From: Trueperaceae bacterium
GTDB taxonomy: Bacteria; Deinococcota; Deinococci; Deinococcales; Trueperaceae
Direction: 5' to 3'
Assembly: GCA_023954415.1 (NCBI GenBank)
Contig: JAMLIB010000005.1
Span: 248,001 to 312,000 of the forward strand
DNA: 64,000 nt
This document shows positions 8,505-13,403 of the stretch, in pieces. Each line of letters begins with the position of its first letter. Position 1 is the stretch's first letter. The notes under the pieces are model-generated. The model worked only from the letters and a program-made list of their open reading frames with translations, searched no databases and was not told where the DNA came from. The position numbers and the translations under genes are program-made.

Positions 8505-9665
8505 CTAACGCGCGAAGCTCGTGCCGACGCCCGCCCAGGGCACCCGCAGTAGGTCCGCCACGCTCGCCCCCACGTCGGCGAAGGTCTCGCGCGTGCCGAG
8601 GTCCCGCGCCGCGACCCCCGGGCGGTAGTAGAGGAGCAGACCGTACTCGCGCGTGTGGTCGGTCCCGTGCCACGTCGGGTCGTTGCCGTGGTCGCTCACG
8701 AACAGCAGGGCGTCATCAGGCCCGGTGGCGGCGAGGAAGTCCGGGATGCGCTCGTCGAGCTCGCGCAGGGCGGCCGCGTACCCGGCCGGGTCGCGACGGT
8801 GACCGTAGAGCGAGTCGAACTCCACCAGGTTGGTGAACACGAGCCCGGCCGGCCGCGCGCGCATCAGCTCGAGCGTCCGCTCGATGCCGAGGGCGTTGGT
8901 GCCGGCCGCGACCTCGCGCGTGAAGCCGCGATGGGCGTAGATGTCGGGGATCTTGCCGACCCCGATCACCTCGCGGCCCGCCGCCTTCAACGCGTCGAGA
9001 ACGTTCGGCGGCGGCGCCACGGAGTAGTCGTGACGCTTGTCGCCCAGGCGCACGAACGCGCCCGGCTCGCCCGCGAAGGGCCGCGCGATCACTCGGGCGA
9101 CCGCGTTCTCGCCCTGCAGGATGGCCCTGGCCCGCCGGCACCACTCGTAGAGCGTCTCGAGCGGCACCACCCCTACGTGTGCGGCCACCTGGAAGACGCT
9201 GTCAGCGCTCGTGTACACGATGGGGTAGCCCGTGCGCAGGTGCTCGGGGCCGAGCTCGTCGAGGATCGTCGTGCCAGAGGCGGGGTAGTTGCCGAGGTGG
9301 CCGCGGCCCGTCGCGGCGTCGAACTCGCGCATGACGGCGTCCGGGAAGCGCTCGAACGTGCGGAACGGGTGTTCGAGCACGGTGCTCATGAACTCCCAGT
9401 GGCCCGTCGTCGTGTCCTTACCCACCGACAGCTCGGCCAGGCGACCGTGGCTCGCGAGCGGCGCAGCGCCGCGCGGCAGGCTTTCCACCCCGGCGATGTT
9501 CGCGAGGCCGAGCGCGGCCAGGCGCGGCAACGCCACGCCGGTCGCGCCGACGACGTGGTCGAGGGTATGGGCCCCGGCGTCGTCCCCGCCGGGGCCGCCG
9601 AAGTCGGCCGCGTCCGGTAGGGCGCCGACGCCGACGGAGTCGAGTACGACTAACGTCACGGTCAT
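8505..9665 (-). CDS. deoB: Phosphopentomutase
   Basis: Interconverts ribose-1-phosphate (or deoxyribose-1-phosphate) and the 5-phosphate in nucleoside salvage; cytoplasmic and manganese dependent in the family. It opens [19 protein letters not shown] with the metal-binding Asp. The alkaline-phosphatase-type motifs [24 protein letters not shown] and [20 protein letters not shown] are all present. 386 residues. The ATG at 9665 is preferred over one eight codons earlier because a TATACT -10 box ends 6 nt before it. Divergent from tilS-tadA. Confidence 0.97.
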
Positions 9666-9671
9666 GGCGCG

Positions 9672-9677
9672 AGTATA
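9672..9677 (-). promoter_or_regulatory. -10 box of deoB, leaderless type
   Basis: TATACT on the minus strand is separated by exactly 6 nt from the deoB ATG, leaving no room for a ribosome site. No clear -35 box is seen. Confidence 0.7.
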
Positions 9678-9736
9678 TGAGCCCGCCACCCGGGCCGCGG
9701 CGCGCCGCCGCGCGAGGACACGGGATCGTCGCGGGC

Positions 9737-9742
9737 GATAAT
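9737..9742 (+). promoter_or_regulatory. -10 box of tilS-tadA, leaderless type
   Basis: GATAAT lies exactly 6 nt before the GTG at 9749 and there is no Shine-Dalgarno sequence. It is back to back with the deoB promoter. Confidence 0.65.
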
Positions 9743-9748
9743 GCGAGC

Positions 9749-11587
9749 GTGACGGAGCCGGCAGACCTCGGTGCTCGCGTGGACGCTGAACTGACGCGGC
9801 TGGCGCCGGCCGCCAAGCGCGTCGTGGTGGCCGTGTCGGGCGGCGCTGACTCGGTGGCTGCGGCGCGCCTCCTCGCCGCGGCCGGTCGCGACCTGGTCAT
9901 CGCCCACTTCGATCACCGCCTGAGGCCGGACTCGGGAGGGGACGCCGAGTTCGTGCGCGCCTTGAGCGCCCGGCTCGGAGCGGAGTTCCGCCTCGGCGGC
10001 GCCGACGTGCTGGCCGTCGCCAGCGCCAGGCGGTGGAACCTGGAGGACGCCGCGAGGCGGCTACGCTACGCCTTCTTGCACGACGTGCTGCGCGCCACGG
10101 CCGCGCGAGACGGCGCGATCGTCGTGGCCCACACGCTGGACGACCAGGCGGAGACGTTCCTGCTCCAGCTCCTGCGTGGCGCGGCTTTCCCGGGCGGCAT
10201 GGCGGCCAGGCGCGGGAGCGTCGTCAGGCCGCTCCTCGGCGTCAGGCGCGAGGAGCTGCGCGCCCACTTGCGCCTCCTGACGCAGGCGTGGCGGGAGGAC
10301 GCCACGAACGACGACCTGAGCAGGAACCGCGCCTGGGTCCGCGCCGAGCTGCTGCCGGCGTTGGAGAGCCGCTTCCCGGGCGTGGCGGAGCGCATCGATC
10401 ACACGGCGTCCCAGCTGGCCGCGGCGCGCGCGGCGTTGGAGCGGCTCGCGCGCGAGCGGTTCGGGGAGGCGGACATCGACGTCGGGCGGCTGGCCGGCGC
10501 GGAGCCCGCGCTGCGCCGCGCGGTCATCGCGGCGCGGCTGCGTGCCTTGGGCGTGCCGGCCACACGCGCGGTCGTTGCGGACCTCGAGGCGGCACTCGGC
10601 GAGGCGGCGCGGCTGGGCTCGGCCGCGCCGCCCTGGCGCCGCGACCTGCCCAGGGGCGCGAGCGCGACGCTCGCCTACGGACGGTTCGCCATCGGGCGCT
10701 CCACCAGCGCGGCGCCGGCACCCGAGGCGCCGCGCGCCGTGAGCACCCTAGCCGACCTGCCGGCCGGCGCTCCCGCGGCGGTCCTCGCCGGCCGCTCCGG
10801 CCTCGTCGTGCGCCGGCGCCTGCCGGGCGACCGCATCAGGCTGCCGGGCGGCACCAAGCTCGTCAGCGACCTCCTCATCGACCGCAAGGTACCGAGGGCC
10901 GAGCGCGACCGTCTCCGAGTGATCGCCGACGGCCCGGAGGTCCTGTGGGTCGAGGGGGTGGCCGTCGCCGCCGCGCTCGGGGCGGGTGCGGCCGGCGTGA
11001 GCCCCGAGGCGCTCGGTGCCCCCGCGCGGGGCTCTTCTCCTCCGGCCGCTAACGGCGACCCCCTCGCGCCTGACACCCGACCGACGCCCGACCGGGACGC
11101 CCGCCTCATGCGCCTGGCCCTCGCGCAGGCGCGCCTGGCCCTCGCCGAGGGGGAGGTCCCCGTCGGCGCCCTGGTGGCCAGGGGCGACGAGGTCCTGGCC
11201 GTCGGGCGCAACCGCACGCGCGCCACGGGCGACCCCACCGCGCACGCCGAGATCGTCGCCATGCGCGCCGCAGCGGAGCGGCTCGGCGGTTGGCGGCTCA
11301 CGGGCTGCACGCTCTACGTGACGCTCGAACCGTGCCCGATGTGCTTCGGCGCCGTGCTCCAGTCGCACGTTGCGCGCGTCGTCTTCGGCGCCCCCAACCT
11401 CAGGGACGGCGCGCTCGGAGGCGTCGCCGACGTCTCGCTCGCGCCTTGGAAGCGGGTCCCGGCGATCCTTGGGGGCGTCGAGGGTGGCGCGGCGGCACGG
11501 CTCCTCAAGGACGCCTTCGCGGCGGCCAGGGGCGCAGACGCCCCGGAAGGCGGCACCGATGACCCCCGCCAGGACGGCATGAACTGA
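9749..11587 (+). CDS. tilS-tadA: Fused tRNA(Ile)-lysidine synthase / tRNA adenosine deaminase
   Basis: Two wobble-position tRNA enzymes in one 612-residue chain. Residues 1 to about 425 are TilS, which makes lysidine at C34 of tRNA-Ile(CAU): ATP-pyrophosphatase P-loop SGGADS at 30-35, then [26 protein letters not shown] and the C-terminal [12 protein letters not shown] domain. A Pro/Ala/Asp-rich linker leads to TadA (about 450-612), which converts A34 to inosine in tRNA-Arg(ACG): zinc-site H499-A-E501 and PCPMC with C529 and C532. No stop or frameshift lies between them. I start at the GTG 9749 because of the -10 box 6 nt upstream. An upstream ATG (9677) would lie in the deoB promoter. Confidence 0.93.
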
Positions 11588-11603: not shown

Positions 11604-11609
11604 TAGACT
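11604..11609 (+). promoter_or_regulatory. -10 box of lepA, leaderless type
   Basis: TAGACT is followed by 6 nt and the GTG start at 11616. It lies in the 28-base gap after tilS-tadA, and no ribosome site is visible. Confidence 0.55.
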
Positions 11610-11615
11610 ACCCGG

Positions 11616-13403
<1,788 letters not shown>

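Follow-up and report, generated by a model that had tools for sequence, protein, structure and literature searches.

A phylum-wide, probably ancestral TilS-TadA fusion in Deinococcota, predicted to be a bifunctional tRNA-modifying enzyme

Introduction

Two tRNA-modifying enzymes of solved structure, the tRNA(Ile)-lysidine synthetase TilS (2e21, 2e89, 3a2k, 1ni5) and the tRNA adenosine-34 deaminase TadA (2b3j, 1z3a, 1wwr), are the closest described relatives of the protein considered here. TilS combines a PP-loop ATPase domain bearing SGGxDS with a central helical region and a TilS_C domain, while TadA carries an HAE plus PCxxC zinc site together with EVPVGA and is known as a free gene. In other bacteria TilS is also found fused to HprT, a purine salvage enzyme.

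We analysed a 64,000-nucleotide stretch of a Trueperaceae bacterium genome (the window), in which one gene holds all of these TilS elements and, unlike known TilS, continues in frame into a deaminase with the full TadA zinc site and EVPVGA; what is elsewhere a free gene is here the C-terminal portion of a larger chain. The arrangement is like the TilS-HprT fusions in that a second enzyme has been attached to TilS, and unlike them in that the partner there, HprT, is not a tRNA-modifying enzyme. A search of the open-access literature for a paper describing a TilS-TadA fusion found none, the matches for 'TilS' being mostly to tumour-infiltrating lymphocytes. The annotation of Deinococcus radiodurans does name a MesJ/cytosine-deaminase-related protein, which would be the same fusion.

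Results and discussion

The gene is a single open frame from its GTG to its stop without interruption (Table 1), in agreement with the earlier note, made from the sequence, that had TilS running in frame into TadA, and the Pfam and NCBIfam domains follow in that order along 612 residues. The TilS half comprises the PP-loop ATPase, a region that binds tRNA and the C-terminal domain. On the TilS side Pfam matched ATP_bind_3 (E 3.8e-36) and TilS_C (E 7e-09), the NCBIfam model TIGR02432 (TilS_N) was passed with 131.8 bits against a cut-off of 93.6, and both TIGR02433 (TilS_C) and PF11734 were above their cut-offs. The TilS C-terminal domain had been called complete; it is indeed present, but the word is slightly generous, as the Pfam alignment spans model positions 1-61 of 74. 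On the TadA side the Pfam deaminase match covers residues 449-559 (E 4e-29), and the motifs previously picked out by eye, SGGADS, HAE and PCPMC, lie at residues 30-35, 499-501 and 528-532 and are invariant or nearly so among 54 fused relatives. EVPVGA is also present. Sequence matches in the PDB divide the chain in the same way, with TilS structures over the first part (3a2k, 1wy5, 1ni5) and TadA structures over the last (2b3j, 1z3a, 3ocq).

Table 1. Features of the tilS-tadA locus (window positions)
Feature	Position	Strand	Basis or detail
Possible -10 element, GATAAT	9737..9742	+	Sequence; 6 nt 5' of the GTG start
tilS-tadA fused gene	9749..11587	+	612 aa, GTG start, TGA stop
TilS PP-loop ATPase domain, residues 25-199, SGGADS at 30-35	9821..10345	+	PF01171, TIGR02432
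TilS C-terminal substrate-binding domain, residues 352-410	10802..10978	+	PF11734, TIGR02433
Disordered inter-domain linker, residues 414-443	10988..11077	+	pLDDT below 50 in AlphaFold2 model
TadA deaminase domain, residues 449-594, zinc ligands H499, C529, C532, catalytic E501	11093..11530	+	PF00383/PF14437, 2b3j match

An AlphaFold2 model, for which the 54 fused relatives served as input, had a mean pLDDT of 89, with disorder confined to the linker and to the tail at residues 601-612. Foldseek placed the TilS part close to Aquifex TilS (2e21/2e89, TMt 0.83-0.86), and the best match of the deaminase part was the S. aureus TadA-RNA complex 2b3j (TMt 0.96, rmsd 1.0 Å, 40% identity); identity to solved bacterial TadAs ranges from 34 to 45%, with rmsd near 1 Å. 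With separate fold matches on either side of a disordered linker, the two domains are predicted to fold separately, in line with the independent folding proposed earlier. That proposal had put the linker at about 25 residues; it is there, at a length nearer 30. Linker length varies and is shorter in most relatives; the long form is confined to this species and those closest to it.

One score might seem at odds with a TadA assignment. The NCBIfam model NF008113 gave 114.6 bits, below its equivalog cut-off of 150. That cut-off serves the automatic naming of proteins, and the model itself derives from the E. coli-type PRK10860. The domain nevertheless belongs with TadA by motif, tree and fold tests. 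This score would suit the alternative that the TadA part works on something else, for example a free nucleoside, or has degenerated into an RNA-binding appendage, as would the Thermus-like members (L032, L034, L035, L146-L151), in which several deletions have shortened the domain to just 60-78 bits compared with 85-139 in other members. However, even these shortened domains keep HAE/PCxxC and the catalytic residues, and 54/54 relatives retain the zinc ligands, the catalytic Glu and the conserved Asn unchanged. In addition, tRNA-Arg(ACG), which normally needs TadA, is encoded both in the present genome and in the Thermus-like G052, neither of which showed another TadA. We consider another substrate or role improbable, and reject degeneracy on the invariance of the catalytic residues and the presence of the tRNA. 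Judged by their residues, both domains of the fusion look catalytically intact.

Single-copy status was assessed by profile searches of the genome (30 contigs, 3.2 Mb, 96.26% complete). Just one TilS stood above the cut-off, the second match reaching 20.8 bits. In the deaminase search the fused gene scored 105 bits, and the other match, C14:204-518, scored 47. This frame has SGHPCPMC where TadA has TLEPCPMC and has no EVPVGA; its score with the TadA model is 49 bits, and the tree places it at a great distance from TadA. We therefore rejected it as a second TadA and regard it as a distant nucleoside-deaminase type. The searches of this 3.2-Mb, 96%-complete genome, including the check for a second tadA proposed in the earlier note, thus found neither a second tilS nor a second TadA, nor the separate intact tilS that would have spoken against that note's reading; at this completeness a second copy could be missing from the assembly.

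Both expected substrates are encoded. ARAGORN, run on loci located by Rfam, gave 44 distinct tRNAs, among them tRNA-Arg(ACG) (L137), through which CGU, CGC and CGA are decoded. The tRNA-Ile(GAU) at L127 is the only tRNA-Ile besides the CAU type. Of three CAU tRNAs, one looks like the initiator (L141), another like elongator Met (L126), and the third (L123) is likely tRNA-Ile2, which we presume to be tRNA-Ile(CAU) from its resemblance to E. coli tRNA-Ile2. No tRNA-Ile(UAU) was found among the 44, and with tRNA-Ile(CAU) present the reading of AUA would therefore need lysidine.

How widespread the fusion might be had been left as a question for a phylogenetic survey, and the answer is that it occurs in essentially every Deinococcota genome surveyed. 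We searched 111 Deinococcota genomes from 31 sampled genera for TilS, cross-checking against a deaminase search. TilS exceeded its curated cut-off in 100 genes from 99 genomes; 98 of these genes share an open frame with a TadA match, and all 31 genera are fusion-positive. The two exceptions are G104, with TilS and TadA on separate contigs and each match near a contig start (a contig break), and G061, in which a frameshift near the junction parts two otherwise intact halves. No TilS passed the cut-off in the remaining 12 genomes, mostly fragmented and incomplete assemblies, eleven of which had no match at E 1e-8 and the twelfth (G012) a weak match only. In genus g4, of the same family, no TilS was seen in six of seven genomes (G075-G078, G080, G081; completeness 72-91%), probably because the assemblies have a gap where GC content is high, with real loss as the less probable explanation.

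These counts bear directly on whether two neighbouring genes had simply been joined by a frameshift, an assembly error or a missed stop. The frameshifted G061 does illustrate that frame errors occur here in assemblies, but an in-frame junction repeated in 98 of 100 genes and across 99 assemblies, several of them with the locus in one contig, leaves this explanation next to no chance, and refutes a sequencing error at the junction, which the earlier note had named as a possible refutation. Elsewhere in the phylum (Truepera, Meiothermus, Thermus-like and further genera) domain order and frame are the same, and the fused gene is there too normally the sole TilS and TadA of its genome; linker length differs. 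Since it is normal throughout Deinococcota, the fusion is old and stable rather than peculiar to the present genome.

Every locus with both halves in a global contig scan was from Deinococcota. The fusion was found in 0/59 loci outside the fused set, and a plasmid search gave no record with both halves, these 59 loci and the plasmid search being the ground covered for its absence outside the phylum. In the tree, fused TadA domains cluster separately from 53 stand-alone TadAs; only 18% of bootstrap trees have a branch that by itself divides the fused rows from the others, and such a tree allows one origin of the fused TadA and does not prove it. From the distribution, the fusion most likely arose a single time, no later than the last ancestor shared by the sampled Deinococcota, and was retained thereafter. 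The same tree has a long branch between the fused TadA domain and the deaminases at L004 and L164. The latter (G001:C1:286800-288200), some 3 kb away from the fused gene of G001, is a frame of 300 aa with a second deaminase domain that scores 75-87 bits; deaminase matches of like strength occur in short separate frames in G002, G003, G025 and G026.

We are highly confident that tilS-tadA encodes a bifunctional tRNA-modifying enzyme of two independent modules, most likely fused once in or before the Deinococcota ancestor and kept. By analogy with the known families, the N-terminal TilS would use ATP and lysine to convert C34 of tRNA-Ile(CAU) to lysidine, and the tRNA would then read AUA and be charged with Ile. 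The C-terminal TadA would deaminate A34 of tRNA-Arg(ACG) to inosine, enabling that tRNA to read CGU, CGC and CGA. The modules would work independently on different tRNAs across the flexible linker, and the whole chain is probably dimeric through the homodimerisation expected of TadA.

Why the two have stayed together is a separate matter. Selection for coupling both edits, whether by synthesis in a fixed 1:1 ratio, by joint docking of tRNA or by TadA dimerisation aiding TilS, is compatible with the bifunctional enzyme and would supply a reason for it. Retention in 31/31 sampled genera, a linker that is kept even as its length varies, and one possible split only, by frameshift, could all be taken in its favour. 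Long retention is, however, also expected if the splitting of fused genes is rare; moreover, the substrates are different tRNAs, the disordered linker argues against a fixed interface, and B. subtilis can do without TadA (PMC10454642). Coupling is thus a possible but rather unlikely explanation, and we are more doubtful still that the wobble-34 enzymes act as one unit across the phylum, with TadA dimerisation or tRNA docking helping TilS, and are inseparable without cost. The earlier suggestion that two essential edits are made in fixed proportion needs softening, as TadA is dispensable in at least that one bacterium. Equal synthesis of TilS and TadA is a trivial consequence of fusion and the importance of the ratio is hypothetical, and a chance fusion of adjacent genes explains the arrangement equally well.

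As a bifunctional enzyme of independent modules, the fusion is real but ordinary for its phylum, and implies no new activity or mechanism. Its value lies elsewhere: retention in every sampled genus makes it a phylum-wide marker, and it is a natural experiment on the benefit, if any, of joining two unrelated chemistries that act at the same tRNA position. It also carries a practical warning, in that the single name 'TilS' can hide a genome's only TadA, and pathway surveys could therefore wrongly score tadA as absent.

Upstream on the opposite strand lies a gene (8505-9689) that we named phosphopentomutase, deoB, from reading its translation; lepA, named in the same way, follows downstream from 11616. 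An in-frame ATG at 9677 sits at the start of the divergent deoB, and the alignment of the nearest relatives begins at the GTG and not at this ATG. The GATAAT before the GTG is suggestive of a promoter, from which a leaderless tilS-tadA mRNA might possibly arise; TANNNT at similar spacing is found in part of the relatives only. Within 11604-11618 the lepA GTG is preceded at the same six-nucleotide spacing by TAGACT, and both genes may yield leaderless transcripts, each from its own promoter.

Further along in related genomes, tilS-tadA and a tRNA-Ser(CGA) gene share 22-23 nt, the 3' end of the former running into the 5' end of the latter, in the Thermus-like L032, L034, L035 and L146-L150 and also at L151, L055, L056, L157 and L165; the codons for the last residues of the protein (...GCRSG) therefore lie within the tRNA gene. 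Many other Deinococcota have this tRNA gene 3-330 nt downstream (39 nt at the Truepera locus L037), which suggests that its linkage to tilS-tadA is old.
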